A stretch of DNA of 64,000 bases from Kiloniellales bacterium (lineage in GTDB: Bacteria; Pseudomonadota; Alphaproteobacteria; Kiloniellales; JAKSDN01), in contig JANQLT010000057.1 of the NCBI GenBank assembly GCA_028280455.1, forward strand, positions 62,001 to 126,000. The letters are read 5' to 3'. Each line of letters opens with the position of its first letter. Position 1 is the first letter of the stretch. Below the pieces are notes generated by a model. The model had not been told where the DNA came from, made no database searches, and worked only from the letters and a program-made list of their open reading frames with translations. Both the position numbers and the translations under genes were made by a program. Positions 15,052-34,713 of the stretch are shown in pieces.

Positions 15052-15257
15052 CGACAGGCTCCGTGCCCTGACCGACCATGAAGCGATTATCCGGGCGGAG
15101 CTAGGGGCGCTCGGCCCGATCGGGTATAGCCGTGTTCCGGCGCTCTGAAGGAGGGCTCGGGCGAGTACCATTCGGTGCGACATGAGTCGCCTGCCACGAG
15201 GGTGATCGAGGCCGAGTGGTCGCAGGGGATATCGGCCTGTGCCCCTGGAGGCGAGCG

Positions 15258-15953
15258 ATGGCCGGCAAGATCTTGCTCGTGGACGACGAAGCAAGCATCA
15301 GGGAGATGATCGGCTTTGCCCTTTCCCGGGCTGGCTTCTCCTACGTGGAGGCCGCCGACGTCGCCCAGGCGGAAGCCGAGATCCTGAGGGACGTCCCCGA
15401 TCTCATTCTGCTGGACTGGATGCTGCCGGGGCGCTCGGGCATCGATCTCGTCAAGTCCCTGAGAGGCGACATCAGCACCCGCTCGATCCCGATCATCATG
15501 CTCACCGCCCGCGGCGAGGAGGAGGACATGGTACGCGGCCTGAGAGGCGGCGCCGACGACTACATCACGAAGCCTTTCGCCCCCAAGGAGCTGGTGGCGC
15601 GGATCGAGGCGGTGCTCCGCCGCGCCAAGCCCGAGGCGACGAACGACGCCATCGACCTGGACGGGCTTCAGCTCAATCCCGTCAGCCATCGAGTCTCGGT
15701 CGACGGACAGGAGCTGGTCCTGGGCCCGACCGAGTTCCGCATGCTTCATGTCTTCATGACCCACCCGGAGCGGGTCTACAGCCGCGAGCAGCTCCTCGAC
15801 CTCGTCTGGGGCGCCAACATCCACATCGGCCCGCGCACGGTCGACATGCACGTCAGCAACCTGCGCAAGGCCCTCGAAGCCAGCGGCCATCATCGCCTGA
15901 TCCAGACCGTGCGCGGCAGCGGCTATCGCCTTTCCGCTCGAGGCCGGGCTTGA
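15258..15953 (+). CDS. phoB: Phosphate regulon response regulator PhoB
   Basis: 231 residues from the ATG at 15258, preceded by GGAGG at six bases. The receiver domain has the acidic pair (VDDE), the phosphoacceptor Asp in [10 protein letters not shown], Thr in MLTARGEE and Lys in ITKPF. The OmpR-type winged-helix DNA-binding domain ends with [10 protein letters not shown], and the [14 protein letters not shown] helix is PhoB-like. The stop overlaps the phoR start by four bases. Together with PhoR it should control the pst operon 1.5 kb downstream, which has phased Pho half-sites in its promoter. Confidence 0.92.
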
Positions 15954-17275
15954 TACGGGCGTGGCGCAACGAGATTGTCTGCGTCCTCGCCCTGGCCGCG
16001 GCACTGCTCCTGCCGGGCCTCCTACTGGGCAACTTTCGACTGCCATTCCTGCTGGGTTTCCTCGGATATCTCGGCTGGCATCTCTTCAACTTCCTGCTGC
16101 TGCAGACCTGGATCGCGCGCCGCCGGAGCTTTCGCCTCCCCGTCTCTCTGGGGGTTTGGGAGGCGGTGTTCGACGGCCTGCAGCGCGGTCAGCTAAGGAA
16201 ACGAAGGCGTGACCGCCGGCTGATCGCATCCCTTTCGGACTACAGGCAGGCCGCGGCCTCCCTGCCCGACGCCCTCGTCGTGATGTCGGAAGGCGGCCGT
16301 ATTCGCTGGTTCAACCCCGCCGCGCGCAAGCTCCTGGGCCTCAACTGGCCCGAGGATCTGGAACGGGACTTGAGCGGCCTGCTCAGGCATCCCGTGCTGG
16401 AAGACGACCTGGCCGGGGGACGGCCTTCGCGGCCGCTGGAAGTGCCGTCTCCAATCAATGGCGCCCTGATGCTCAGCGTTCAGGTGACGGCGCCTTTCGG
16501 GAACCAACGCGAACGGCTCCTGCAGGCGCGCGACATCACCTCGGTTTTCCGGCTGGAGCAGGTCCGTCGAGATTTCCTGGCCAATGCCTCGCACGAGCTG
16601 AGGACGCCGATCACGGTGTTTCGCGGCTACCTCGAAGCGCTCCGTGAAGCCTTCTCGGGCGATCCCGAATGGCAGAGACCGCTGGCTCAAATGGACCAGC
16701 AGGCGCAGCGCATGCAGGATCTTGTCGGCGATCTTCTGGAGCTGTCTCGTCTGGAGATGGCCGGACGGCTGGACGCCGACGCACCCGTGCCGATTCCGGA
16801 GATGTTGTCCGAGATCGTCGAGGAAGCGAGGGCTCTGAGAAGGGAGCCGCGGCACGACCTCCGCCTACGCGCCGACCCCAGTGCCTGGCTCCTCGGCGAG
16901 GAAGCCGAGCTGCGCAGCGCCTTCTCCAACATCATCTTCAACGCCGTGAGACACACGCGGCCCGGCACCCGCGTCGAGATCGAGTGGCGGACGGATGGCG
17001 AAGGTGCCAGCTTCTCGGTCCGCGACCACGGTCAAGGCATTGCCGCCTACCACCTGCCGCGGCTCTCCGAGCGCTTCTATCGGGTGGACGCCGGGCGATC
17101 GCGCGACTCCGGTGGGACCGGCCTCGGCCTGGCCATCGTCAAGCAGGTGCTCGACCGCTACTCGGCGGAGCTGAAGATCGCCAGCGAGGTCGGTGTCGGC
17201 AGCACCTTCATCTGCCAGTTCCCGGAGTCGCTCGTCCAGCTGGCACCGCCCGCAGACCTGCCGAAGGCCGGGTAG
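15950..17275 (+). CDS. phoR: Phosphate regulon sensor histidine kinase PhoR
   Basis: 441 residues if it starts at the TTG overlapping the phoB stop (TTGA), with GAGG six bases upstream; no ATG is available in frame nearby. There are two N-terminal membrane segments (about 6-50), then a PAS-like segment starting [22 protein letters not shown]. The dimerisation domain has the phospho-His in [13 protein letters not shown]. The ATPase domain has the N box ([10 protein letters not shown]), G1 (DHGQGI) and G2 ([10 protein letters not shown]). The short N terminus without a large periplasmic domain is the typical PhoR layout, in which signal comes through Pst and PhoU. This operon has an atypical PhoU. 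Confidence 0.9.
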
Positions 17276-17394: not shown

Positions 17395-17447
17395 TTTATG
17401 ACTGGGTGGGCAGGCAGATCCGCAGAGGCTCACCGCTGGGAGGAAAA

Positions 17448-18341
17448 ATGCAAAGAACCGTCACGTCGTCCCTCGGGACCGCCCTCGCCGTCGGCGCCCT
17501 CCTCTTGAGCATGCCCGCCGAGGCGCGCGAACTTATCCAGAACAAAGGCTCCGATACCCTGGTCAACGTCGCCCAAGCTTGGGCCGAGGCCTATCAGACG
17601 GTCAATTCGGACGTGGCCGTGGCCGTCACCGGCGGCGGCTCGGGCACCGGCATCGCGGCGATGATCAACGGCACGGTCGACATCGCCAATGCCAGCCGGG
17701 CCATGAAGCAGAAGGAGCTCGATCTGGCCAAGTCCAAAGGACAGAACCCGATCGAGCACATCGTCGGCTTCGATGCGCTCGCCGTCTACCTGCACATGGA
17801 CAACCCGGCCAAGTCACTGTCGATTGCCCAGCTTGCCGAGATGTTCGGCGAAGAAGGCGAAACCGAGACCTGGACCGACATCGGCCTCGAGGTGCCCGGT
17901 TGCAAAGACCAGGAGATGGTCCTCGTCAGCCGCCAGAACAATTCCGGCACCTACGCCTACTTCCGCAAGGCCGTGCTCGGCAAGAAACGGGACTACCGCA
18001 TGGGCACCCGCGATATGCACGGCTCGAAGGATGTCGTCGACCTGGTCGAGAAGACGCCCTGCGCCATCGGCTACAGCGGCCTCGCCTACGCCACCGATCA
18101 CGTGAAGATGGCGTGCATCTCCAAGGACGACGCCGAGGATTGCGTGATGCCGACCGTGGCTACCGCGTCGGACGGCTCCTATCCGATCGCCCGGCCGCTG
18201 TTCATGTACACCAATGGCGAGCCGGCCGGAGAGATCAAGAAGTACCTCGACTTCATCCTCAGTGACCGAGGCCAGTGCATCATCCTGAAGAAGGGCTATG
18301 CGCCGGTCCGCGACGTCAACTGCGCCTCCGAGACCGACTAG
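17448..18341 (+). CDS. pstS: Phosphate ABC transporter substrate-binding protein PstS
   Basis: 297 residues from the ATG at 17448, behind GGGAGGA. The signal peptide ends at about MPAEARE. The binding fold has the phosphate-contacting motifs NKGSDTLV, TGGGSGTGIAAM, ANASRAMK and SRQNNSGTYAYFRK. This is the short PstS type with two Cys in the C-terminal lobe (ACISK...EDCVMP), which may form a disulfide in the periplasm. First gene of pstS-phoU*-pstC-pstA-pstB1-pstB2. A long GC-rich hairpin follows the stop and may keep its transcript abundant. Confidence 0.92.
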   Translation: MQRTVTSSLGTALAVGALLLSMPAEARELIQNKGSDTLVNVAQAWAEAYQTVNSDVAVAVTGGGSGTGIAAMINGTVDIANASRAMKQKELDLAKSKGQNPIEHIVGFDALAVYLHMDNPAKSLSIAQLAEMFGEEGETETWTDIGLEVPGCKDQEMVLVSRQNNSGTYAYFRKAVLGKKRDYRMGTRDMHGSKDVVDLVEKTPCAIGYSGLAYATDHVKMACISKDDAEDCVMPTVATASDGSYPIARPLFMYTNGEPAGEIKKYLDFILSDRGQCIILKKGYAPVRDVNCASETD

Positions 18342-18349
18342 AGACCCAG

Positions 18350-18375
18350 GCCGGGCCGGCGGACGCCGGCCCGGC
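18350..18375 (+). promoter_or_regulatory. Perfect 11-bp hairpin after pstS
   Basis: GCCGGGCCGGC, the four-base loop GGAC, then GCCGGCCCGGC, nine bases after the pstS stop and with no T run. It probably acts as an mRNA-stabilising or processing element that raises pstS over the downstream membrane genes. It might also attenuate read-through. Confidence 0.65.
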
Positions 18376-18489
18376 GCCGTCCTGCACTGGCTGCGGTGGC
18401 CGGCCAGACGGCGCGCCGCGCAATAGGCCGTAGCCGACGACGAGCAGCCGCCCGAGGCGGGGACCGAAGCGAAGCCGGAGCATCCAGCC

Positions 18490-19581
18490 ATGCCACTCTA
18501 TGAAGAGCGCCTGTCCAAGGACATGACCTGGATTCGGGACGAGGTTGCTTCCTTGGGGGCGGCCGTGCAGAAGGCGCAAGAGGATGCCGTACGGGCCGCG
18601 CTGACCGGCAACAGGGAGCTCGCCAATCAGACAATTCTCCGTGACCACCCGATCAACCGTCAGACTCGGGAGATCAACCGCCTCTGCCACGCCTTTCTGG
18701 CGACTCACCTGCCCAGCGCCGGCCCCCTTCGCCTGATCTCATCGATTCTGAGGCTCGTCAACGAGCTGGAGCGGATCGGCGACTATGCCGCGACGATCGC
18801 GCGCGAAGGCATACAGCTACCGCACCTGCCAACCGGGCTGCTCAAGCAAGAAATGGGGGAGATGGCCGAGCAGGCTCAGACCTGTCTGCGCCAGGCCATG
18901 CGCTCTTTCAACGAAAAGGACGCCGAGCTCGCCCGCGAGACCAAGACGATCGCCGCACAAGGCAAGAGCCGCGGAGATCTGGCCTTCGAAGAGCTCGTCC
19001 ACGAGAGCGAGACCTCGCACGAGCAGATTCGCTACCTCTTCGATGCCCTTATCCTGGTCGGTCGGCTGAAGCGCGTCTGTGACCGTTGCAAGAACATCTG
19101 CGAAGAGACGCTGTTCACGGTGACCGGCGAGACCAAGCCGCCGAAGACCTACAGGATCCTGTTTCTCGACGACGAAAACACCTGCCAAAGTCAGATCGCA
19201 CAGGCCGTCGCCCGCAAGTCCTTTCCCAATAGCGGCCAGTACGACAGTGCCGGCAGGCGCAACGGTGTCGATCTCGAGCCCGGCCTCGTCCGCTTTCTGG
19301 AGAGGCACGGCCTGGTCTCAGGCGCGGCCGAGACCACCGCTCTGGACCCGGATCCGCACAAGGTCGCCAAGTACGACGTCGTCGTCAGCTTGAAGGGCCC
19401 CGTGAGCGACTACCTGCCGCAACAGCCCTTCCGGACCGTCTTCTTGGACTGGGATGTCGGAGACCTGCCGGAGGGCCTCGCGGCGACCGAAAGCGAAGAC
19501 CGCTACACCGAGATGTACCGCGAGATCGCCGCCAGGGTCCGCGACCTCATGGAAATCCTCCGCGGCGAGGGAGCGGACTGA
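18490..19581 (+). CDS. phoU: PhoU protein fused to a degenerate low-molecular-weight phosphatase/ArsC-like domain
   Basis: 363 residues, where PhoU is usually about 220-240. Residues 1-213 are PhoU: the metal-binding repeat motifs appear as NELERIGDYAATIA (91-104) and RLKRVCDRCKNICEE (192-206). Residues 220-363 resemble a low-molecular-weight protein tyrosine phosphatase or thioredoxin-type arsenate reductase: RILFLDDENTCQSQ aligns with the catalytic C-x5-R loop, then DSAGRRNGVDLEP. Nucleophilic Cys is replaced by Asp227 and Arg by Gln233, while Asn230 and Ser234 stay. A C-terminal FLDWDVGDLPEG stretch matches the acid loop. The second domain is therefore probably a binding, not catalytic, module, perhaps for phosphate or a phosphoprotein. 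It lies between pstS and pstC rather than at the operon end. Confidence 0.85.
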   Translation: MPLYEERLSKDMTWIRDEVASLGAAVQKAQEDAVRAALTGNRELANQTILRDHPINRQTREINRLCHAFLATHLPSAGPLRLISSILRLVNELERIGDYAATIAREGIQLPHLPTGLLKQEMGEMAEQAQTCLRQAMRSFNEKDAELARETKTIAAQGKSRGDLAFEELVHESETSHEQIRYLFDALILVGRLKRVCDRCKNICEETLFTVTGETKPPKTYRILFLDDENTCQSQIAQAVARKSFPNSGQYDSAGRRNGVDLEPGLVRFLERHGLVSGAAETTALDPDPHKVAKYDVVVSLKGPVSDYLPQQPFRTVFLDWDVGDLPEGLAATESEDRYTEMYREIAARVRDLMEILRGEGAD

Positions 19582-19582
19582 G

Positions 19583-20551
19583 ATGACGGAGGCATCGAGG
19601 CCTGTCTCCGGTCCGGTGGGGGGCGTCTCGGCTGCGAGCAAGAAGCGCGACGAGCTCGACTTCGACCGGCGGAACGCGGACTGGTACATCGACAAGGTCG
19701 TCCAGGTCCTGGTCTTCATCGGCGGCATCTCGGCGATCATCTTCATCATCGGGATCTTCGTCTTCGTGACGAAGGAAGGCCTCGGGTTCCTGATCGGCCC
19801 CTTCGATTTCGCCGAGTTCTTCGGCTCGCCGCGCTGGAAGCCGACCTCGGAGTACAAGACCACCTACGGCATCCTGGCGCTGATCGCCGGCACGGCCAGC
19901 GTCACCGGACTGGCAATGCTGGTGGCCATACCCTTCTCATTGGGCGCGGCCATCTTCATCGCGGAATTCGCCACCGGAAAGACCCGCGAGATCCTCAAGG
20001 TGCTCGTCGAGCTTCTGGCGGCGATCCCCTCGGTGGTCTGGGGCTTCATCGGCCTCTCGATCATGAACCCGCTGATCATCGAGCTGTTCGACGTGCCGGT
20101 GGGACTGAACGTCCTGAACGCCGGCATAATCCTCGGCCTGATGGCGGCGCCGATCATGACCTCTATTTGCGAGGACGCCCTCAAGGCCGTGCCGGACCGC
20201 TATCGCGAGGCCGCCGAGGCGATGGGCGCGACCCGCTGGCAGGTGGTCTACAAGGTGGTCCTGCCGGCGGCCAAAAACGGGCTGCTCGGCGGGGTGCTGC
20301 TCGGTGTCGGGCGCGGCTTCGGCGAGACCATGGCGGTGCTGATGGCCAGCGGCCACTCGATCAACCTGCCGGACAGCATCTTCGATTCGGTCCGCGCCCT
20401 GACCGCCACCATCGCTGCCGAGCTCGGCGAGACCGCCGTCGGATCCGACCACTATCAGGCGCTCTTCACGATCGGCATCTTCCTCTTCCTGATCACCTTC
20501 CTGATCAATCTGACCGCGGATCTCATCGTCCGCGGAATCCGCAAAGGCTAG
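19583..20551 (+). CDS. pstC: Phosphate ABC transporter permease PstC
   Basis: 322 residues from the ATG one base after the phoU* stop. A cytoplasmic N terminus of about 45 residues precedes the first membrane helix (VVQVLVFIGGISAIIFIIG). The inner-membrane permease loop motif reads EAAEAMGATRWQVVYKVVLP and a GRGFGETMAVLMASGH stretch follows, as in PstC. It pairs with PstA to form the phosphate channel. Confidence 0.92.
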   Translation: MTEASRPVSGPVGGVSAASKKRDELDFDRRNADWYIDKVVQVLVFIGGISAIIFIIGIFVFVTKEGLGFLIGPFDFAEFFGSPRWKPTSEYKTTYGILALIAGTASVTGLAMLVAIPFSLGAAIFIAEFATGKTREILKVLVELLAAIPSVVWGFIGLSIMNPLIIELFDVPVGLNVLNAGIILGLMAAPIMTSICEDALKAVPDRYREAAEAMGATRWQVVYKVVLPAAKNGLLGGVLLGVGRGFGETMAVLMASGHSINLPDSIFDSVRALTATIAAELGETAVGSDHYQALFTIGIFLFLITFLINLTADLIVRGIRKG

Positions 20552-20567
20552 GGGCGAGGAACGGGCC

Positions 20568-21437
20568 ATGTTCGCTGCGACGGAGAGCAACGTCCAAGAC
20601 CGGCGCCGGGAGACCCTCATCGGCCTCCTCTTCATGCTCATGACCGTCCTGCTGATCCTGCCGGTGCTGTTGATCCTGGGCACCTTGGTGTGGAAGGGCG
20701 GGCCGGCCATATCCTTCGAGTTCCTCTTCGCCGATCCGATCGACGGCATGACCGCCGGCGGCATCTTCCCCGCGCTGGTCGGGACGATCTGGCTGGTCGC
20801 CGTGGCACTTCTTGTCTCGGTGCCCCTCGGCGTTGCCGCCGCGCTCTATCTGAGCGAGTTCGCGCCGGACAACTGGTTCACGCGCCTGATCAACCTGGCG
20901 ATCATCAACCTGGCGGGCGTGCCCTCGATCGTCCATGCGCTCTTCGGGGTCGGCGCCTTCGTGATCTTCTTCGGCTTCGGCACCTCCATCCTGGCGGCCA
21001 GCCTGACGCTGGCGATCATGACCCTGCCGCTCATTATCGTGGCCACGCGCGAGTCGCTTCAGGCGGTTCCCCTGGCCTTTCGCGAGGCTTGCTGGAACAT
21101 GGGCGCCACCCGCTGGCAGACGATCCATCGTGTCGTCCTGCCCAACGCCGTCAGCGGCATACTCACCGGAGTCATCCTCGAGGTCTCTCGCACATCGGGC
21201 GAAACGGCGCCGATCATGTTCACCGGCGCGGCCTTCTTCCTGCCCTTCCTGCCGGAGAGCGTCTTCGATCAGACCATGGCGCTGTCGCTGCACCTCTTTG
21301 TCGTTTCCACCCAAGTCCCCGGCGTGCCCGAGCACCTGCCCTATGGCGTGGCCCTCGTGCTGATCGCCATGGTCCTGGCACTCAACGCGACATCGATCGG
21401 CTTCCGCATGTACCTGAGGGGCAAGAAGAAGTGGTAG
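20568..21437 (+). CDS. pstA: Phosphate ABC transporter permease PstA
   Basis: 289 residues with six or so membrane segments. The permease-ATPase contact loop is REACWNMGATRWQTIHRVVLP, followed by SRTSGETAPIMFTGAA, typical of PstA. It begins 16 bases after pstC and its end overlaps the GTG start of pstB1 by seven bases. The contact loops of PstC and PstA each dock one ATPase, which matters because the two ATPases here are not equivalent. Confidence 0.92.
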   Translation: MFAATESNVQDRRRETLIGLLFMLMTVLLILPVLLILGTLVWKGGPAISFEFLFADPIDGMTAGGIFPALVGTIWLVAVALLVSVPLGVAAALYLSEFAPDNWFTRLINLAIINLAGVPSIVHALFGVGAFVIFFGFGTSILAASLTLAIMTLPLIIVATRESLQAVPLAFREACWNMGATRWQTIHRVVLPNAVSGILTGVILEVSRTSGETAPIMFTGAAFFLPFLPESVFDQTMALSLHLFVVSTQVPGVPEHLPYGVALVLIAMVLALNATSIGFRMYLRGKKKW

Positions 21438-22258
21438 AGGCACCCACCGCCGTGCCAGTGGCACAGGACTTCTCGCCGATCGACCTGCCGGAGGCGGCGA
21501 CCGCGACGCCCAAGCTGGAAATCCGGAATCTCTCCATCAGCTATGGCGGGACGCCGGCCCTTGTCGGTGTCGACCTGGCGATAAGGGAGAACGAGATCTT
21601 CGGGATCATCGGGCCCGCCAACAGCGGTAAGACGTCGTTTCTCAAGGCCTTGAACCGCATGGACATGTTCAACGGCAGCATGAAGGTCAACGGCGAGATC
21701 CTGTTCAATGGCCGCAACGTTCGCGAGTGGCGCAACGTCTACGCCTTGCGCAGCCGGATCGGCGTCGTCTTCCCGCTGCCGGTCGGCCTGCCGATGACGG
21801 TCTACGACAACGTCGCGCTGGCGCCCCGCCTGGCGGGCATGTCCAAAAAGGCGGAGCTCGACGAGATCGTCGAGCGCTGCCTGACGCGCGCGGCGCTCTG
21901 GGACGAGGTCAAGGACCGGCTGCACTCGCTCGGCAGCCTGCTGTCCGGCGGCCAGCAGCAACGCCTGACCATTGCCCGCGCGCTCTCCCAGGAACCCGAG
22001 CTGCTCATGCTCGACGAGTTCTCGATCGCCGTCGATCCCGTCACCACGATGCGCATCGAGGACGTGCTCAAGGAGCTGCGGCGCGAGATGACGATCATCC
22101 TGGTGACCAACCTGACTCAGCAGGCGCGTCGCTTGGCCGATCGGACCGCTTTCTTCCTGATGGGAAGCTGCGTCGAGATCGGCGACACCGAGGCACTTTT
22201 CACCGGCGATGTCACGGACCAGCGGACGGCGGACTACATCGCCGGCCGCTTCGGCTGA
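21431..22258 (+). CDS. pstB: Phosphate ABC transporter ATPase PstB1 (Q-loop and switch His lost, signature intact)
   Basis: 275 residues from the GTG at 21431 (overlapping pstA); a GTG at 21452 is an alternative start. Walker A is GPANSGKTS (61-69), the signature is canonical LSGGQ (171-175) and Walker B is LLMLDE (191-196) with the catalytic Glu. The Q-loop Gln, normally GMVFQKP, is Pro115 (GVVFPLP). The switch His, normally VTHNM, is Asn227 (VTNLT). The Pro after the Walker B Glu is Phe. Alone it should hydrolyse ATP poorly. It can supply the intact signature to the composite site whose Walker motifs come from PstB2, encoded 39 bases downstream. The C terminus RTADYIAGRFG is normal for PstB. 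Confidence 0.88.
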   Translation: MVEAPTAVPVAQDFSPIDLPEAATATPKLEIRNLSISYGGTPALVGVDLAIRENEIFGIIGPANSGKTSFLKALNRMDMFNGSMKVNGEILFNGRNVREWRNVYALRSRIGVVFPLPVGLPMTVYDNVALAPRLAGMSKKAELDEIVERCLTRAALWDEVKDRLHSLGSLLSGGQQQRLTIARALSQEPELLMLDEFSIAVDPVTTMRIEDVLKELRREMTIILVTNLTQQARRLADRTAFFLMGSCVEIGDTEALFTGDVTDQRTADYIAGRFG

Positions 22259-22297
22259 GTGGCTTTGACCAGAGGCAGTCCCGAGAGGCCGTCGAGC

Positions 22298-23098
22298 ATG
22301 AACAAGTCCGCCAACGTGAACAGTGACCCGAACGGTCTCGCCATCCGGTCTCGAGACCTGAACCTCTGGTACGGCGACTTCCAGGCCCTCTTCGACGTCA
22401 ATCTCGACATCAAGAAGGGGCTCATCACCGCGCTCATCGGCCCTTCCGGCTGCGGCAAGACGACCTACCTGCGTAGCGTCAACCGCATCAACGAGCGGCT
22501 CGGCTATGTCCGGATCGAAGGCTCGATCGCCGTACTGGACCACGACGTCTACGACTCCGGGGTCGAGCTCGCCCAGGTTCGCAAGCAGATCGGCATGGTC
22601 TTCCAGAGGCCCAACCCCCTGCCGATCTCGATCCGAGACAACGTCCTCTTCGGGTTCGAGCTGCACGGCGATGGCCGCGGGCGCATGCATCGCAGCGAGA
22701 AGGACGAGATCGTCGAGCAGGCGCTACGCCAAGTGCTGCTGTGGGACTCGGTAAAGGACCGCTTGGACAAGAAGGCAACGACGCTCTCGCTGGAGGAGCA
22801 GCAGAAGCTCTGCATCGCCCGCCTGCTGCCGGTCAAGCCGCAGGTCCTGCTGATGGACGAGCCCTGCTCGGCGCTCGACCCGAAGGGGACCGAGGCTGTC
22901 GAAGAGCTGATCTGGGGGCTGCGCGGCCAGTACACGATCCTGATCGTGACCCACAACATGGCCCAGGCCCGGCGCGCCAGCGAAGAGTGCATCTTCATGC
23001 TCATGGGGCGCGTGGTCGAGCACACAGCCACGGAGGAGATGTTCGTCACCCCGGCCAAGCAGGAAACCGCCGACTACATCGAGGGCCGCTACGGCTGA
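22298..23098 (+). CDS. pstB: Phosphate ABC transporter ATPase PstB2 (signature degenerate, catalytic motifs intact)
   Basis: 266 residues from the ATG at 22298, behind GAGAGG; a GTG directly after the pstB1 stop is an alternative start. Walker A is GPSGCGKTT (49-57), the Q-loop is VFQRPNP (Gln103), Walker B is VLLMDEP (183-189) and the switch is VTHNM (His219): all canonical. The signature, normally LSGGQQQR, is LSLEEQQK (163-170), read directly from in-frame codons. It thus complements PstB1: one composite ATP site would be fully consensus and the other fully degenerate. It ends the pst operon and converges on the polyphosphate:AMP phosphotransferase gene 28 bases away. Confidence 0.88.
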   Translation: MNKSANVNSDPNGLAIRSRDLNLWYGDFQALFDVNLDIKKGLITALIGPSGCGKTTYLRSVNRINERLGYVRIEGSIAVLDHDVYDSGVELAQVRKQIGMVFQRPNPLPISIRDNVLFGFELHGDGRGRMHRSEKDEIVEQALRQVLLWDSVKDRLDKKATTLSLEEQQKLCIARLLPVKPQVLLMDEPCSALDPKGTEAVEELIWGLRGQYTILIVTHNMAQARRASEECIFMLMGRVVEHTATEEMFVTPAKQETADYIEGRYG

Positions 23099-23126: not shown

Positions 23127-24671
23127 CTAGTGGTGGAGCGCCGCCTTCAATCGATCGCAGACCGTCTGCAGCACCCTGACTCGAGCAAACCTCTTGTCGT
23201 TGCCCTCAACCAGCGTCCAGGGCGCATGGTTGGTGCTGGTACGCTCGACCATGTCGTTGACCGCCTGCTCGTAGTGCTCCCATTTCTCCCGATTGCGCCA
23301 GTCTTCCTCGGTGAGCTTCCAGCGCTTATAGGGCGTCTCCTCGCGTGATTTGAAGCGGGCGAGCTGCTCGTCGGGCGTGATATGCAGCCAGAACTTGGAG
23401 AGCACGATGCCGTGGCTCGCGAGCTGCTCCTCGAAGTCGTTGATCTCCGCATAGGCCCGGCGCCATTCCGGCTCGCCGGCGAATCCTTCGACCCGCTCGA
23501 CCAGGACACGGCCGTACCAGCTCCGATCGAAGAACGTCATGCGGCCCGCCCGGGAGATATGCCGCCAGAAGCGCCAGAGGTAGTGTTGGGCGAGCTCTTC
23601 GTCGGTGGGAGCGGCGATGGGAATGACGCGGTAGTTCCTGGCGTCCAAGGCGGCGGTCATGCGGCGAATGGCGCCGCCCTTTCCGCCGGCATCCCAGCCT
23701 TCGAAGACGCAAATGCCGGAGACCTTCGCCTCGATGGCCTTGAGATGCAGCTCGTGCAACTCGGCCTGCAGCTCGGCGAGCTTCGCGTTGTAGGCCCTCT
23801 TGTTCAGCGACTGCTTCATGTCGAGGCCGCTGAGGATCGTCAGGCCGCTGGCCGATCGCAGGACGCCGACCGCGCTGTCGTCCGCCCCGTTGCCCTTCTC
23901 GGCAACCGCGACCTGCGTCTCCCTTGATTTCATCTCGGCCGCAAGTTGCTTCTTGACCTGGACCTCGGCCAGATGAGTCCGCAGGGCGTCCCGAATGGCC
24001 TTCGCCACGGTCAAGCCGCAGTAGCGCAGGTCCAAGCCCTCGACGATCTGCCAGGGCGCGCTGCCGGTGCTGGTGCGCGCAATGGCCCGCTCCGCCGTGG
24101 CGACGAAGTCCTCGTATTTCTCAAGGTTGTCCCAGTCGCTTTGGCTAACCCGCCAGGAGGTCAGCGGATCCGCCTCCAGCTCTTTGAAGCGCTTCTTCTG
24201 GGCTTTGTAGCCGAGGTGTAGCCAGAACTTGACGATCAAGGTGCCTTCGTCCGCCAGCTCCTGCTCGAAGATGGCGATATGCTCGAGAAGCTTGTCGAAC
24301 TGCGCCTCGTCGATTGCGCCGTGGACCCGCTCGAGAACCGCCTGCGAATACCAGGCGCTCATGAATAGGCCGATCTGGCCTTTCGGCGGCAGGTCACGCC
24401 AGTAGCGCCAGCCCTCTGGTCTCTCCTGCTCTTCTTCCGATGGTGGGCCATAGGCACAGGTGATGATCCAGCGCGGGTCCATCCACTCGTTCAGCAGGTT
24501 GATGGTCTCGCTCTTGCCGGCCGCATCGACACCCCCGAACAGAAAAATCGCAGGCACATTGGCCTTGCGCAGCGCCTGCTGCACCTCCAGCAGCTCCGTC
24601 CGCAGCTCGAGGACCTGCGCGTTGAAGTCCGATTTGCTGACTTTTCGCCCCAGTTCGGCTGTCTCGAACAT
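23127..24671 (-). CDS. pap: Polyphosphate:AMP phosphotransferase (two-domain PPK2 family)
   Basis: 514 residues from the ATG at 24671, behind GGGAGG. Two PPK2 domains are in tandem. The first (about 10-225) has GGVDAAGKSETINLL. The second (about 285-510) has EGWDAGGKGGAIRRM and FFDRSWYGRVLVERVEG, so the second domain keeps the more canonical PPK2 lid region. In Acinetobacter and Pseudomonas PAP makes ADP from AMP and polyphosphate. Its place beside pst suggests use of stored phosphate for nucleotide recharging under energy stress. A 9-of-10 FNR-like box lies 131 bases upstream. Confidence 0.9.
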   Translation of the reverse strand: MFETAELGRKVSKSDFNAQVLELRTELLEVQQALRKANVPAIFLFGGVDAAGKSETINLLNEWMDPRWIITCAYGPPSEEEQERPEGWRYWRDLPPKGQIGLFMSAWYSQAVLERVHGAIDEAQFDKLLEHIAIFEQELADEGTLIVKFWLHLGYKAQKKRFKELEADPLTSWRVSQSDWDNLEKYEDFVATAERAIARTSTGSAPWQIVEGLDLRYCGLTVAKAIRDALRTHLAEVQVKKQLAAEMKSRETQVAVAEKGNGADDSAVGVLRSASGLTILSGLDMKQSLNKRAYNAKLAELQAELHELHLKAIEAKVSGICVFEGWDAGGKGGAIRRMTAALDARNYRVIPIAAPTDEELAQHYLWRFWRHISRAGRMTFFDRSWYGRVLVERVEGFAGEPEWRRAYAEINDFEEQLASHGIVLSKFWLHITPDEQLARFKSREETPYKRWKLTEEDWRNREKWEHYEQAVNDMVERTSTNHAPWTLVEGNDKRFARVRVLQTVCDRLKAALHH

Positions 24672-24801
24672 GATCCTGGCCTCCCGGCATGGCTCGGCGC
24701 CAACACCCTGTCTCCGCCCCTTTCTTTTGCGGCCCGCCCTGAACGGCAAGGCGCAAGCTATGAGCTAAGCAAAGCGCTAGTGTTCAAATGAGTCCAGGAA
24801 A

Positions 24802-26130: not shown

Positions 26131-26132
26131 GG

Positions 26133-28234: not shown

Positions 28235-28738
28235 GTGTCCGAGCAGGATACGACAACTCATCGGCAAGCGCCGGCTGAAGCCGGTCCCATTCTCGTGGCC
28301 GTCGACTTCACCGCCGACTCCGAGGCCGCCTTGATTTGGGCCTGCCGCTACGCGGCTTTCCTCCACGCCCCCATCAAGGTGCTGCACGTGCTTCACGATC
28401 CCGCGGAATCGCCCGGGGCCTATTCGTCGAAGGAGAACGACACGCTTCGCCCGATGGAAGAAGTCGCCGGGGAGATGATGAGCGCGTTTCTCGAACGGAC
28501 CCTGCAGATGGCGGGCCCATCCGGCGCCTCCGCGGACGTCGAGCCGATCATCGTCAAAGGGCTGCCGCCCTCGCGCATCGTAGAGATGGCCGAGAAGATC
28601 GGTGCCGAGGTCATCGTCATGGGCAGCCGCGGCAGGACCGGGCTGCCGCACCTCCTCTTGGGCTCGAAGGCCGAGCGTGTCGCGCAGCTCGCGCCCATCC
28701 CGGTCACGATCGTCAAAGCGGATCGCCAAGATGACTAA
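28235..28738 (+). CDS. Universal stress protein (UspA family)
   Basis: 167 residues from a GTG behind GGGGAGG. A single Usp domain begins PILVAVDFTADSEAALIWACRYA. The nucleotide-binding motif is VIVMGSRGRTGLPHLLLGSKAERVAQLAPIPVTIVK split over the C terminus (G-x2-G-x9-G-S type), so ATP binding is likely. It resembles the Usp at 14259-14804. Its stop overlaps the start of the Na/Pi cotransporter gene by eight bases, implying co-translation and a functional link between stress signalling and phosphate transport. Confidence 0.9.
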   Translation: MSEQDTTTHRQAPAEAGPILVAVDFTADSEAALIWACRYAAFLHAPIKVLHVLHDPAESPGAYSSKENDTLRPMEEVAGEMMSAFLERTLQMAGPSGASADVEPIIVKGLPPSRIVEMAEKIGAEVIVMGSRGRTGLPHLLLGSKAERVAQLAPIPVTIVKADRQDD

Positions 28739-30590
28739 GCCGCGGAAAACCGGCCACGTCGGGCCCGCCTACTCCATGTGGTCTTCGTCGCCCGATCGCC
28801 TGTTGGGCCTGGACGCCAAGCGACTAGCGGGTCTGCTGATCGTCGCCCTGGCGGTCTGCCTGGCGGCCGCCCCGACGCTGGCGGCCGATCAGGAGAGCAA
28901 GGGGATCGACTGGTTCAAGATGGGCATGCAGCTCTTCGGCGGGCTGGCCATCTTCCTGCTCGGCATGGAGCAGATGGCCGACGCGCTGAAGAAGGTGGCC
29001 GGCCACCGCATGAAAGCGATCCTCGGGAAGCTCACGACAAGTCGCATCATGGGCATGATGACCGGCGCCTTCGTGACGGCCATCATCCAGTCCTCCTCGG
29101 TGACGACGGTCATGCTCGTCGGTTTCGTGACGGCCGGCCTGATGTCGCTGTCGCAAGCCGTCGGCGTCATCTTCGGCGCCAACATCGGTACCACCGTCAC
29201 CGCGCAGATCATCGCCTTCAAGGTCACGCACTACGCCCTCGTCCTCGTGGCGGTCGGCTTCGCCTTCGTGTTCACCGGCAAGACGAACCGGGTCAAGCAG
29301 TACGGCACCCTGATCATGGGGCTCGGGCTGATCTTCTTCGGCATGGGCATCATGAGCACGGGCATGAAGCCGCTGCGCAGCTTCGAGCCCTTCATCGCTC
29401 TGATGCAGGATGTCTCGGCGCCCGCGCTCGGCATTCTCATCGCCGCCGCCTTCACGGGCCTTGTCCAATCCTCCTCGGCGACGACCGGCGTGGTGATCGC
29501 CATGGCCTCGCAGGGACTGATCTCGCTGGAGGGCGGAATCGCGCTGATCATGGGCGCCAACATCGGCACCTGCGTCACCGCCGGCCTGGCGGCGATCGGC
29601 AAGCCGCGCGAAGCGGTGCGCGTCGCGGTGGCCCACGTCACCTTCAACGTCGCCGGCGTCGCCGTGGCCGTCTGGTTCATCCCCTACATCGCGGATTTCG
29701 TCAGGACGGTCTCGCCGGTCGCGGAAGGCCTCACCGGCATCGACAAGCTCGCGGCGGAGACACCACGCCAGATCGCCAATGCCCACACGGCCTTCAACGT
29801 CTTCTTCTCGCTGCTCTTCTTGCCCGCCGCGGGCCTGGTTGCCCGCTTTGCCGAGATGCTGGTCCCGGACCGGCCCTTGGTCGCGCCCGTCGTGATCGAG
29901 CCCAAGTACCTGGACAAGGAGCTGCTTTCGACGCCGCCCTTGGCTCTCGATCGGGCCCGGCGTGAGATCGGCAGGTTCGGCGGTCTGGCCCAGCAGATGC
30001 TCGAGGCGAGCCAAACCGCCGTCATCTCAGGGAGCCAGGAAGACCTCAATGCGCTCGCGGCGATGGATGCGGATCTCGACATCCTGCACGGTCACATCGC
30101 CCACTATCTGAGCGATCTCAGTGCCAGGGAGCTGGAGACCGAGGAGTCGGACCAGGTCATGGAGCTTCTGCTCGTGGCCAACAATATCGAGACGATCGGC
30201 GACATTATCGAGACGAACCTGGTGACCATCGGCCGCCGGCGGATCCAGGAGGAGATCACCGTCAGCAAGCCGACCGAGGCGGTGATCTTGCGGTACTACA
30301 ACGAAGTGGCGGTAGCGTTGAAAGAGGCCGTCCTGGCCATTCAGGAGGAAGACCAGGCGGCCGCGCTCAGGGTCAAGGCCATGAAGAAGAGCATGGCCGA
30401 GCTGGCCGAGGAAACCGCACGCCACGAGATGGAGCGTCTCTTGGCCAAAGAGCCCAATCGCTTGCAGACCTTTACGCGTGAGATGGAGATCATCGAGAAC
30501 CTCAGCCGGATCTATAGGCTTTGCCGAAAGATCGCCAGGGTGCAATGGACCCAGACTCCGAGCGACAGCCTGCCCGAGGCCGCGGAGTGA
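28731..30590 (+). CDS. Na/Pi cotransporter family protein with C-terminal PhoU-like domain
   Basis: 619 residues from the ATG at 28731. A hydrophobic segment (about 30-50) precedes two inverted NaPi-II repeats, each with the QSSS motif: IIQSSSVTTVMLVGF and LVQSSSATTGVVIAM, and GANIGT in both. The last about 200 residues are helical and PhoU-like, with VANNIETIGDIIETNL and YRLCRKIARVQW. Such NptA/YjbB-type proteins move phosphate with sodium; E. coli YjbB exports phosphate when internal phosphate is high. It overlaps the upstream usp gene. With Pst it gives this locus both ATP-driven and ion-driven phosphate transport. Confidence 0.88.
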   Translation: MTKPRKTGHVGPAYSMWSSSPDRLLGLDAKRLAGLLIVALAVCLAAAPTLAADQESKGIDWFKMGMQLFGGLAIFLLGMEQMADALKKVAGHRMKAILGKLTTSRIMGMMTGAFVTAIIQSSSVTTVMLVGFVTAGLMSLSQAVGVIFGANIGTTVTAQIIAFKVTHYALVLVAVGFAFVFTGKTNRVKQYGTLIMGLGLIFFGMGIMSTGMKPLRSFEPFIALMQDVSAPALGILIAAAFTGLVQSSSATTGVVIAMASQGLISLEGGIALIMGANIGTCVTAGLAAIGKPREAVRVAVAHVTFNVAGVAVAVWFIPYIADFVRTVSPVAEGLTGIDKLAAETPRQIANAHTAFNVFFSLLFLPAAGLVARFAEMLVPDRPLVAPVVIEPKYLDKELLSTPPLALDRARREIGRFGGLAQQMLEASQTAVISGSQEDLNALAAMDADLDILHGHIAHYLSDLSARELETEESDQVMELLLVANNIETIGDIIETNLVTIGRRRIQEEITVSKPTEAVILRYYNEVAVALKEAVLAIQEEDQAAALRVKAMKKSMAELAEETARHEMERLLAKEPNRLQTFTREMEIIENLSRIYRLCRKIARVQWTQTPSDSLPEAAE

Positions 30591-30883: not shown

Positions 30884-31345
30884 GTGCAGGTCGCAGAGAT
30901 CATCCAAGACAAGAGCGACCGAGTGGTCGCTACCGCCCCCGACACCAGGATCGAGAGCGTCACGAAGGTCCTGGAAGCCGAGGGCGTTGGCGCCGTCCTG
31001 GTTCGCGCGGAGGAAGGCACGACGCTCGGGATCCTCTCGGAGCGCGACATCGTGCACGGCGTGGCGCGCCACGGCCCAGAGGCCGTAAACATGCTCGCGT
31101 CGGACCTGATGACGAGCTCGGTGATCGACTGCCGGCCCGAAGACGACATCGAAGCCTTGATGCACAAGATGCTGGAGTCGCGCATTCGTCACCTGCCGGT
31201 CGTCGAAAACGGCGCGCTGATCGGGATCATCAGCATCGGTGACGTGGTCAACGCCGTCGTTGGAGAGTTCAAGTGGATGCGGGCCACGCTGCAGGATCAG
31301 TTGATGAAGTCGACCGTCTGGTCAACGGAAGAGGATCCGGACTAG
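30884..31345 (+). CDS. Stand-alone two-CBS-domain protein
   Basis: 153 residues from a GTG preceded by a GAGGAG-like site. Two CBS motifs: VATAPDTRIESVTKVLEAEGVGAVLVR (as two shorter motifs) at about 12-40 and EDDIEALMHKMLESRIRHLPVVE at about 88-110, each followed by a GIISIGD- or GILSERD-type strand. Such proteins bind adenine nucleotides and regulate partners or report energy charge. It stands alone between the Na/Pi cotransporter and the 2PGK-like gene. The FNR-like box upstream suggests it belongs with the stress set. Confidence 0.88.
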   Translation: MQVAEIIQDKSDRVVATAPDTRIESVTKVLEAEGVGAVLVRAEEGTTLGILSERDIVHGVARHGPEAVNMLASDLMTSSVIDCRPEDDIEALMHKMLESRIRHLPVVENGALIGIISIGDVVNAVVGEFKWMRATLQDQLMKSTVWSTEEDPD

Positions 31346-31492: not shown

Positions 31493-32680
31493 ATGGCCAA
31501 GACGTTGGTTGTCGGTGCCGACGGGCATCACACGCGCGTCCCCTTCCTGAGGGGCATCCTGACACGGTCTCTGCAAGACGCTGGCTTGTCCTTCGACGAA
31601 GCCTATGCCGTCTCATCGGAAGTCCGCGAAGACCTCGGCGAAACGCAGGAGGTCACGACCAAGGACCTGCACCAGATCGTCGTCCGGAAGCTTGCCGACA
31701 GATGCCCGGAGGCGGTTCTCCAACGCTACGAGACGCCAACAAGCAAAGCCAGGAGCCTTCTGATCCGGGACGCCGAGGGGCGAACGACGCTGTTCTCACG
31801 GGAGCAGCATCGGCGTCATCTGGAGTCGAGCGGGCTGTCCTATGAGGACTCCGTCGCTGTCACGACGCGGATCTTCGACCACCTCATGCACATCGCCGCC
31901 CCGGAGATCAGCTCGCGCAGGCTGGGCCTGCTCACCTACCGCTACCTGCATCGTGCCCTGGGCCCGGACACGGCAAGACGATACATGGTCCTCGTCGATT
32001 TCTTTCGCGGCAAGCGGCCCTTGATCCTCCTGATCGGCGGCACGCCGGGTTGCGGCAAGAGCGCGGTGGCCAGCGAGGCTGCGAACCGGCTGGAGATCGG
32101 CCGCACCCAGTCGACCGATCTCCTGCGCGAGGTGATGCGCATGATGATCCCGGAGCGCCTGTCGCCGGTCCTCCACACCTCGTCCTTCAATGCCTGGTGG
32201 ATGCTGCCGAGCCGGGACAAACCGGAATCCAGCCCCGACAGCCTGCTGCTGGACGGCTACCGTGCCCAGGCGGATCTCTTGTCCGTCGCTTGCGAAGCGG
32301 TGATCAGCCGTTCCTTGAGCGAGAAGACCTCGCTGACCCTCGAAGGCGTCCATATCCAGCACTCCCTGCTGGCCAGGATTCCCAAGGATACCAACGCCGT
32401 GATCGTCATGGCCATGCTGGCCGTGCTGAACCCCAATCGCCTACGCGAGCGAATCGCGCAGCGCAGAGGTCTCGGCGGTGGCCGCCGGGCCGAGCGCTAC
32501 CTGGAGAACTTCGACACGATCTGGCGCCTTCAGTCCTACCTGCTTTCGGAAGCCGACCGATGGCATGTTCCGATCATCGTCAACAACGACAAGGAACAGG
32601 TGATCGCCGACGTCATGCGGACCGTGGTCGACAAGCTCCTGGTCGATTCCGATTCCACGCCCAGCGAGGTCTTTCGCTAG
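31493..32680 (+). CDS. 2-phosphoglycerate kinase-like protein with two ATP-cone-like domains
   Basis: 395 residues. Two ATP-cone-like regions (about 1-80 with RGILTRSLQDAGLSFDEAYAV, and about 90-168 with HLESSGLSYEDSVAVTTRI) are followed by a P-loop kinase domain with Walker A GGTPGCGKS (182-190) and a TLEGVHI strand. The architecture matches archaeal 2-phosphoglycerate kinase, which makes 2,3-bisphosphoglycerate, precursor of cyclic 2,3-diphosphoglycerate, and also the plant LPA1 proteins that affect phytate levels. The reaction here is unproven. Its place in a phosphate locus suggests a phosphorylated storage or signalling metabolite. A zeta-toxin-like kinase is a less likely alternative. 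Confidence 0.7.
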   Translation: MAKTLVVGADGHHTRVPFLRGILTRSLQDAGLSFDEAYAVSSEVREDLGETQEVTTKDLHQIVVRKLADRCPEAVLQRYETPTSKARSLLIRDAEGRTTLFSREQHRRHLESSGLSYEDSVAVTTRIFDHLMHIAAPEISSRRLGLLTYRYLHRALGPDTARRYMVLVDFFRGKRPLILLIGGTPGCGKSAVASEAANRLEIGRTQSTDLLREVMRMMIPERLSPVLHTSSFNAWWMLPSRDKPESSPDSLLLDGYRAQADLLSVACEAVISRSLSEKTSLTLEGVHIQHSLLARIPKDTNAVIVMAMLAVLNPNRLRERIAQRRGLGGGRRAERYLENFDTIWRLQSYLLSEADRWHVPIIVNNDKEQVIADVMRTVVDKLLVDSDSTPSEVFR

Positions 32681-32750: not shown

Positions 32751-33305
32751 CTAGGTCCCCTGGAAGCCGCCTCGCCTCTTGGCAAAGCCCCTGGCCACGG
32801 CTTGCTTGTCCGCAGCCGTCAAGAGTCGCTCGGCCAAGGGCAGGACCACGCGGTTCTCCCAGAGCAGATGGCGACGCTGTGTTTCGACGAAGGCGCAAAC
32901 GTCCATGTAGAAGCGGGTACGCCGAAGCGGAACGCCTTCCCTGACAATGGCGTCGAGTTCGGTGAGAATCGGCTCGACCAATCCCCGGTCGAGCTCGTGC
33001 TCGGCGACTAGCTGCTCGAGGATGATCTCGACGTTGACATCGCCCTCGCAACGGCGGGCCAAGGCCGGATAGAGATCGACCTCTTCGTCCTCGATGTGCC
33101 GCGGGAGGTCTTCCGTAAGGAACGCCTGCAGCGACCGAGCCCGTTCGACAACCGGCTCCAGATCCAGGGCGTTGAAGATGTCGTCGAGCTCCCCGCAGAT
33201 CTCGAACTGGCGGTCATGCTCCCGGCGTATCGTCTCGATCGGGTCGTCGAGCAGGTCGGCCGACGCCTCCGAACCACCGGCGCTGAGTGGTTTCGGCGCC
33301 ATCAT
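32751..33305 (-). CDS. Hemerythrin-domain protein
   Basis: 184 residues. The four-helix hemerythrin ligand set is visible: His30 (RREHD), His70 and Glu74 (PRHIEDEE), His103 (AEHELD), His146 and Glu150 (RRHLLWEN), consistent with a di-iron site. Bacterial members bind O2 or NO or act in iron and redox homeostasis. The start overlaps the stop of an upstream unknown gene (ATGATG), so they are coupled. That gene has a perfect FNR-type box upstream, which suits an oxygen- or NO-related role. Confidence 0.88.
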   Translation of the reverse strand: MMAPKPLSAGGSEASADLLDDPIETIRREHDRQFEICGELDDIFNALDLEPVVERARSLQAFLTEDLPRHIEDEEVDLYPALARRCEGDVNVEIILEQLVAEHELDRGLVEPILTELDAIVREGVPLRRTRFYMDVCAFVETQRRHLLWENRVVLPLAERLLTAADKQAVARGFAKRRGGFQGT

Positions 33306-33940
33306 GACCCCTGCGCGGATCGAGAACCCTCGAGCAGGACGAGTTTCACTCTCTGCCTGGGGATATCGGGTTTGGCGCGGCCGTCGACGTCGGCGCCCGC
33401 CGATCCTCGATGCGTCGCGGCGATCCAGTCAGGAGAACATCTGGTGTGCTCCACGATGTCGCGAAGCAGTTGTTCCATGTGATCCTGGCGGCAAGCCTCC
33501 TCGATCTGCGCCAGGCCGTGAAGATCGTCGACGGCATCGCCCTCGGGCCACCGGCCCACTAGCTGCGCGCGCTGGGCCAGGTATCGCCAGGTCAGATCCT
33601 TGAACGGCCCGACGAGCGAGACATCCGTCTGCAGGGCCAGGAACGCCGTCCGAAGCCCCTGCCTGAGCTGCGCCTCGTCGTCGTGGCTCGGACCCGGTGC
33701 CGGCTCCGGTCCGCGGTCTCGGAACGGTCCTTGCCGGATCGGCCGACGGCGGCCCGAGTCCTCGGCGGCGCTCTCGCCGCGCGCGGCGTCCAGGTCGAGA
33801 TAGTCGAGGATCATGCCGAGGGGCTCGAGCAGCTCCTCGTGGCTGCCGACGTCCAGATCCTCGGCGATGCCGGCCAGACGGCGAAGCACGCTGTCGAGGT
33901 TGAAGCGCTCGATCCAGACCGATTGCTTCCACGCCCCCAT
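33302..33940 (-). CDS. Protein of unknown function coupled to hemerythrin
   Basis: 212 residues from the ATG at 33940; the frame is open further upstream but that part lacks coding character and would run over the FNR-type box, so the start is placed here. No family recognised. It has no signal peptide or membrane segment. The N terminus (WIERFNLDSVLRRLAGIAED) and middle (LRTAFLALQTDVSLVGPFKD) look helical; a Pro/Arg-rich, charged linker (about 70-95) joins them. Ends four bases into the hemerythrin gene. The overlap and the shared promoter suggest a hemerythrin partner. Confidence 0.65.
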   Translation of the reverse strand: MGAWKQSVWIERFNLDSVLRRLAGIAEDLDVGSHEELLEPLGMILDYLDLDAARGESAAEDSGRRRPIRQGPFRDRGPEPAPGPSHDDEAQLRQGLRTAFLALQTDVSLVGPFKDLTWRYLAQRAQLVGRWPEGDAVDDLHGLAQIEEACRQDHMEQLLRDIVEHTRCSPDWIAATHRGSAGADVDGRAKPDIPRQRVKLVLLEGSRSAQGS

Positions 33941-34149: not shown

Positions 34150-34713
34150 TCAGAGGCTGACGGCGGATATGTGCCATCGCGCGCGGCTCTGCGACGGCGG
34201 CTCGAAGTAGACCAGGTCCGCGCTGCTGATCGACGTCGTGTCCTCGACCGAGAAGCCGAGGTAGCGGCCCAGGACACGAAAGACGCCGGAGTGCGCGACG
34301 ACGAGGACCGGCGGCGGGCCGTCGATCGAGTCCATGGCGTGAAGCACGCGCGCGGAAAAGGCATCCATGGTCTCGACGCCCTCCGGATCGCGTTCCTCCG
34401 GGCGCTCGCTCTTCGGCTTGCCCTCGTAGTCGCCCCAATGCCGCTCCATCAGGCCGGGCAAGGGAAACCTCGGCGCCCGCGTCATCACCGACACGATCGA
34501 CGCGGTCGTCCAGGCTCTCTTGAGCGTGCTGGCGTAGATCGATCCCAGCTCGCGATCCGCCAAGAGACGCCCCGCCTCTTCCGCGGTCCTCCGGCCGGAT
34601 GGGGTCAAGGTCGTGTCGGTCTGCCCCTGGAGCACCCCGGCCTGATTCTCAGGCGTCTCGCCATGACGCAGGAAGTAGAAGGGCGTCGACTCGAATTCGA
34701 ACGCAGGGCCCAT
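34150..34713 (-). CDS. Histidine phosphatase family protein (phosphoglycerate mutase-like)
   Basis: 187 residues from the ATG at 34713; an upstream GTG/ATG extension to 34749 is less likely. The catalytic RHGE motif (FLRHGETPENQAGVLQG) is near residue 17, the second Arg is in STLKRAW, the Glu is in MERHWGDYEG and the second catalytic His is in VVAHSGVFR. It is a phosphomonoesterase-type fold. Substrates range from phosphoglycerate to sugar phosphates. Two genes away is a 2-phosphoglycerate kinase-like protein, so a phosphoglycerate substrate is possible but not shown. Confidence 0.85.
   Translation of the reverse strand: MGPAFEFESTPFYFLRHGETPENQAGVLQGQTDTTLTPSGRRTAEEAGRLLADRELGSIYASTLKRAWTTASIVSVMTRAPRFPLPGLMERHWGDYEGKPKSERPEERDPEGVETMDAFSARVLHAMDSIDGPPPVLVVAHSGVFRVLGRYLGFSVEDTTSISSADLVYFEPPSQSRARWHISAVSL

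Follow-up and report, generated by a model that had tools for sequence, protein, structure and literature searches.

In methanogens, 2-phosphoglycerate kinase (2PGK) catalyses the first step towards cyclic 2,3-diphosphoglycerate. Passages of two papers describe it as feeding this synthesis (PMC12136491, PMC10690619). Part of a further paper lists COG2074, the family of archaeal 2PGK, together with the phosphoglycerate mutase family COG3635 among the archaeal-like genes that Thermus and Deinococcus possess (PMC1274311). In plants, rice LPA1 (low phytic acid 1) affects seed phosphorus and is called a 2PGK homologue in a portion of a paper that treats a role as InsP1 kinase as unproven and leaves the substrate open (PMC4844318). 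A bacterial 2PGK phosphate module is not described in the literature among the matches listed, which does not prove its absence from print. This analysis concerns a 2PGK-like kinase gene in a 64,000-nucleotide stretch of DNA (the window) from an alphaproteobacterium of the Kiloniellales. It newly describes a link between such kinases and phosphate genes, a recurrent ApgM-type neighbour and a fusion with it, an exchange of ApgM for a histidine phosphatase, and a Thr-type subclass of ApgM.

The window kinase gene (31493..32680, plus strand) is an ORF of 395 amino acids with an ATG start, and is present as a single copy in its own 5.9-Mb genome. An earlier note on this DNA had described ATP-cone-like regions and a P-loop kinase domain, and this layout is borne out. 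The first ATP-cone (31529..31729, +; residues 13-79) matches Pfam PF03477 at 1.7e-8, and the adenylate-kinase-like P-loop kinase domain (32012..32641, +; residues ~174-383) carries the Walker A motif GGTPGCGKS at residues 182-190. Between them lies a second ATP-cone-like region (31757..31954, +; residues ~89-154), where the kinase-family profile matches the ATP-cones of NrdR/NrdD (E 0.11-0.46, weak alone). The AlphaFold model of the kinase (58-row alignment; pLDDT 89.9, pTM 0.74) shows the element order of a cone twice before the kinase domain, and the weak match and the repeated order together suggest two ATP-cones. G183, G188, K189, and S190 are invariant in the 58-row alignment, as are many other residues of the kinase domain; the constancy of these residues and of the P-loop Lys and Ser suggests catalysis.

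Like the window kinase, archaeal 2PGK (PRK04220/COG2074) combines an ATP-cone with a P-loop kinase. The window kinase differs from it in that its gene is bacterial and surrounded by Pi and polyphosphate genes, in that one more ATP-cone lies N-terminal to the region covered by the 306-position model, and in a score some 115 bits short of the curated cut-off (1.8e-67, 227.9 bits, cut-off 343, ~280 positions aligned). The bacterial 2PGK model PRK12337 aligns over residues 13-385 (2.5e-74), but its score of 250.6 bits is about 350 bits below the cut-off of 603. The kinase thus has a full-length 2PGK profile match and falls short of both equivalog cut-offs, so it is named here a 2PGK-like kinase and not a proven 2PGK. 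Two other NCBIfam models score lower: PRK12338 at 122 bits, and PRK12339 (mevalonate-3-phosphate 5-kinase) at 54 bits, below its cut-off of 250. Since one of the related models is a mevalonate-3-phosphate 5-kinase, substrate drift among 2PGK-like kinases is evidently real. The likeness to plant LPA1 is by description only.

On profile scores the kinase is, as previously claimed, a 2PGK homologue, despite lying below the two cut-offs, and it is not closer to zeta toxins or uridine kinases. The zeta-toxin domain (Pfam PF06414) reaches 21.5 bits, under the gathering threshold of 22.3, over residues 172-221 only, and the 2PGK profiles score far better; identity as a uridine kinase is also ruled out by profile scores. 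No solved structure of the kinase family was found by sequence search. Most Foldseek matches of the model are adenylate-kinase-like kinases, and ATP-cone ribonucleotide reductases also appear. In the structural comparison (50 matches listed), adenylate, UMP/CMP, and gluconate kinases score so close together (Z 15.4 to 13.4) that the fold alone picks no substrate. Zeta toxin is not among these 50 listed matches, which excludes nothing.

The phosphate island around the window kinase is real: the Pst genes, PPK2-type enzyme, and Na/Pi symporter that the earlier note had placed in the kinase locus are all confirmed. A gene for a PhoR-type sensor kinase (15239..17275, +) is followed by a Pst cluster (17406..23098, +) encoding PstS, a PhoU-LMWPc fusion, PstC, PstA, and two PstB-like ABC ATPases. 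In the fusion (18490-19581, +), PhoU domains are joined to a low-molecular-weight phosphatase-like (LMWPc) domain that scores just below the Pfam cut-off. The polyphosphate:AMP phosphotransferase (23127..24749, -) is a tandem PPK2 protein (TIGR03708, 686 bits, cut-off 547.65). Two neighbouring CNNM/CorC genes occupy 24841-27743 (-), and CNNM relatives recur at many kinase loci. Next are genes for a universal stress protein (28235..28738, +), the Na/Pi symporter with a PhoU domain as its tail (28602..30590, +; a mechanical ORF whose true start is probably later), and a CBS-pair protein (30884..31345, +), which lies directly upstream of the kinase here and in the same place in 12 loci. On the far side, a hemerythrin HHE gene (32751..33305, -) is convergent to the kinase, and an ORF of 212 amino acids without a Pfam match (33302..33940, -; start inferred) separates it from a histidine phosphatase gene. 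PPK1 is encoded elsewhere in the genome, outside the island. Pho-box-like sites are not enriched in the window (11 against 13.8 expected), and none is near the kinase gene.

Kinase matches occur in 7 of 58 relatives' genomes, including the window's own (one is a 43-residue contig end only), and in 4 of 385 genomes drawn from the class, of which two are full-length (including the window's own) and two weak and partial. A scan of genome contigs, from which the best 80 of 149 were kept, is biased to near relatives and Thiodiazotropha; a draw of 303 genomes from one class gives a fairer frequency. By record title, the best 80 of 149 are mostly Gammaproteobacteria (e.g., Thiodiazotropha, Sedimenticola, tubeworm symbionts, and Thiomargarita), many hosts being marine symbionts, and the rest are Planctomycetota, some Alphaproteobacteria, and one Anaerolineae bin. 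Many host genomes are MAGs, some of them probably misbinned. Among viral contigs, 29 pattern matches included no relatives of the kinase. Two plasmid records have partial matches; the Deinococcus and Meiothermus copies align with only 31-36% of the query, with identities of 33-35%.

The ORFs of 86 kinase loci (85 fetched plus the window; L011, L013, and L014 repeat contigs of L023, L064, and L024) were clustered and probed with 20 proteins. A phosphate gene (PstS/C/A/B, PhoU, Na/Pi, PPK1, or PAP) is present at 62 of 81 kinase loci, a count that leaves out the window, L011, L013, L014, and also L010, which needed no exclusion, versus 0 of 18 control stretches (Fisher 7e-10), and the link therefore recurs far outside the window genome. 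The controls are iPGM neighbourhoods from 17 host genomes and span 6.6 to 19.9 kb, and the test loci span 4.2 to 21.2 kb. The remaining 19 loci are without a phosphate gene. Two kinase loci from the 303-genome draw (L158 and L159), with ApgM not over the cut-off, lie near a PstC-PstA-PstB-PhoU-like row on the same strand. In 20 loci, as in those of Thiodiazotropha (e.g., L063, 8139-9875, +), the gene before the kinase encodes a response regulator that also has SpoIIE phosphatase and HATPase domains.

The most frequent partner is an ApgM-type gene (PF10143/PF01676), which neighbours the kinase at 58 of 86 loci. In 49 of the 58 its ORF starts no more than 100 bp from the kinase stop, with a 4-bp overlap in 11 (mechanical ORF starts). 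All three partners tested pass TIGR00306 (341.6, 322.2, and 326 bits; cut-off 320). At L083 the two proteins form a natural fusion, a single 843-aa frame with 2PGK (PRK04220, 2e-76) preceding ApgM (326 bits, cut-off 320). Of the 303 genomes drawn, the kinase exceeds 300 bits in 11, ApgM is over the cut-off in 4, and 3 have both (Fisher 1.4e-4), with the two genes adjoining in all three. Because 8 of the 11 kinase genomes lack ApgM over the cut-off and 3 of the 4 ApgM genomes are linked, the tie is specific and not universal. Neither ApgM nor a histidine phosphatase is near the kinase at 14 of the 86 loci, and at two of these (L085 and L088) ApgM over the cut-off is encoded elsewhere in the genome.

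The ApgM partners depart from described ApgM (TIGR00306) at the nucleophile position, where they have Thr-His-Thr-Gly instead of the Ser-Asp motif. The nearest solved chain to the partner at L032 is archaeal ApgM 2zkt (7.9e-74), in which we take the Ser of GSDTAH to be the catalytic nucleophile; all 55 aligned partners have Thr in its place. The partners keep the DRRAGR and HR motifs, which 2zkt also has, and metal-site-like Asp and His residues are conserved, with roles that we presume to be those of the superfamily. Among distant ApgM relatives unlinked to the kinase, Ser is kept in L181, L183, L186, and L187, and L182 and L184 have neither motif; an unlinked Thiomargarita ApgM (L188), 50% identical to a partner, has the Thr motif. 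As judged by their aligned residues, the partners are a subclass with Thr for the catalytic Ser. Plain mutase activity is thus not assured: the partner may have stayed a mutase, or its activity may have shifted to that of a phosphatase. The ApgM neighbour at 58 loci and the one natural fusion give a comparative context that favours phosphoglycerate as the compound handled.

A histidine phosphatase (branch 1), the putative counter-enzyme, takes the place of ApgM at 14 of the 86 kinase loci (11 without duplicate contigs), and the two occur together at none. In the window it lies at 34150..34713 (-; start at 34713 inferred), which agrees with the earlier report of such a gene three genes from the kinase: it is the third gene downstream, convergent, with two genes between, so that the link is weaker here than in the ApgM operons. 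The phosphatases keep the catalytic residues (RHGET and the second Arg, Glu, and His positions). The window phosphatase matches CobC, PhoE, and PGM alike and lies below all cut-offs, including the curated ones of TIGR01258 (42.5 against 81.7 bits) and TIGR03162 (CobC; 76.1 against 162.9 bits). The solved chains nearest to it are a bacterial phosphatase (1ebb/1h2e), CobC, and phosphoglycerate mutases. The suggestion that it is the reverse enzyme gains weight from its recurrence, its absence beside ApgM, and its intact catalytic residues, and it may act on the product of the kinase.

The exchange of partners follows the kinase phylogeny. On a quick IQ-TREE tree of 93 rows with SH-aLRT support, built without archaeal or plant sequences and with L010, L011, L013, and L014 left out, the labels for ApgM versus phosphatase need one change. 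The alphaproteobacterial clade of the window comprises 11 rows (SH-aLRT 100); the phosphatase accompanies the kinase in ten of them, and L012 is without either partner. Loci labelled 'Binatia' or 'Hyphomicrobiales' (L019, L020, and L027) sit deep in this clade, probably through binning errors; L019 and L020 encode identical proteins.

Homology, an intact P-loop, a recurrent neighbourhood, a partner swap, and one fusion form the observed basis of a functional proposal. Chances are about even, as we see it, that the kinase and its partner make or handle 2,3-bisphosphoglycerate, or a near analogue, within phosphate storage or sensing. The two ATP-cones would probably let the kinase sense the adenine-nucleotide state. 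When ATP is plentiful, the kinase would add a second phosphate to 2-phosphoglycerate or a near relative and yield 2,3-bisphosphoglycerate. The partner, ApgM-type in most relatives and a histidine phosphatase in the window clade, would supply the substrate or take the phosphate off again. The product might serve as a soluble organophosphate buffer or a phosphate-status metabolite beside polyphosphate, tuned with Pi uptake.

PFK-2/FBPase-2 unites a P-loop kinase with a phosphatase of the histidine-phosphatase fold and thereby controls how much of a bisphosphorylated metabolite is present. The kinase and partner described here resemble it in logic only; they are encoded by separate genes, would act on another substrate, and are not members of that family, and the PFK-2/FBPase-2 structure 1bif is a weak fold match to the window kinase (Foldseek rank 36). 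By analogy, a tentative and rather doubtful extension of the proposal is a toggle in which an ATP-gated kinase would be paired with either of two exchangeable counter-enzymes, a Thr-type ApgM or a histidine phosphatase. Between them they would control the amount of 2,3-bisphosphoglycerate, which would serve as a soluble reserve of phosphate or as a phosphate-status signal, in the Pst and polyphosphate islands of symbionts that oxidise sulfur, of Planctomycetota, and of Alphaproteobacteria. If so, tubeworm and lucinid symbionts and Planctomycetota would have an organic phosphate pool beside polyphosphate. The module also bears on the role of 2PGK-like proteins outside methanogens, plant LPA1 included.

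Several other roles would account for parts of this pattern. 2,3-Bisphosphoglycerate is the cofactor of cofactor-dependent phosphoglycerate mutase (dPGM), and the kinase could make it solely for this housekeeping purpose; this is very improbable, as only 1 of 24 host genomes has dPGM (TIGR01258) over the cut-off, whereas a separate iPGM is over the cut-off in 20 (G239 and G438, counted among the 24, are evidently the same genome). From these counts, the module in most hosts provides neither the principal mutase of glycolysis nor a cofactor supply. In the Planctomycetota hosts G450 and G451, where iPGM is not over the cut-off and there are several ApgM relatives, ApgM may also serve glycolysis. 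It is possible, on a minority estimate, that the substrate of the kinase is a different small phosphorylated molecule, such as inositol monophosphate or a sugar or polyol phosphate, with partners that act on the same compound. The missed 2PGK cut-offs, the related mevalonate-3-phosphate 5-kinase model, and the altered nucleophile motif of the ApgM partners all point this way, as does the passage in which rice LPA1 might be an InsP1 kinase (PMC4844318). Against it, the partners belong to two unrelated superfamilies that both contain phosphoglycerate mutases, and DRRAGR and HR are kept in the ApgM partners.

Synthesis of a compatible solute (cyclic 2,3-diphosphoglycerate or a glucosylglycerate type), with the place among phosphate genes reflecting phosphate demand only, is unlikely: the neighbour families scanned at kinase loci brought no cyclising enzyme to light, even though many hosts are marine symbionts by record title and methanogen 2PGK feeds such a pathway in the passages cited above (PMC12136491, PMC10690619). 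Similarly improbable is a purely regulatory protein, in which the ATP-cones and kinase fold would bind phosphoglycerate without turnover and signal to Pho proteins. Such a role is suggested by a diverged paralogue that precedes sensor genes at three loci, and is opposed by the invariant P-loop Lys and Ser and kinase-domain residues.

At L144 (7184-8353, -), and also at L145 and L149, this paralogue (about 30% identity) comes ahead of an ORF for a CHASE sensor or HK and of a response regulator gene. At L144 a histidine phosphatase gene is found 12 bp upstream of it on the same strand. Another diverged paralogue, at L146 (6570-8242, -), has a CYTH-domain gene directly after it and CNNM and PPK1 genes nearby. 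Large ORFs of 820-990 amino acids with a weak 2PGK-like P-loop region are found at L152 (1320-3839, -), L154 (6693-9149, -), and L153, the last of which adjoins a pyrimidine/AMP-phosphorylase-like gene.
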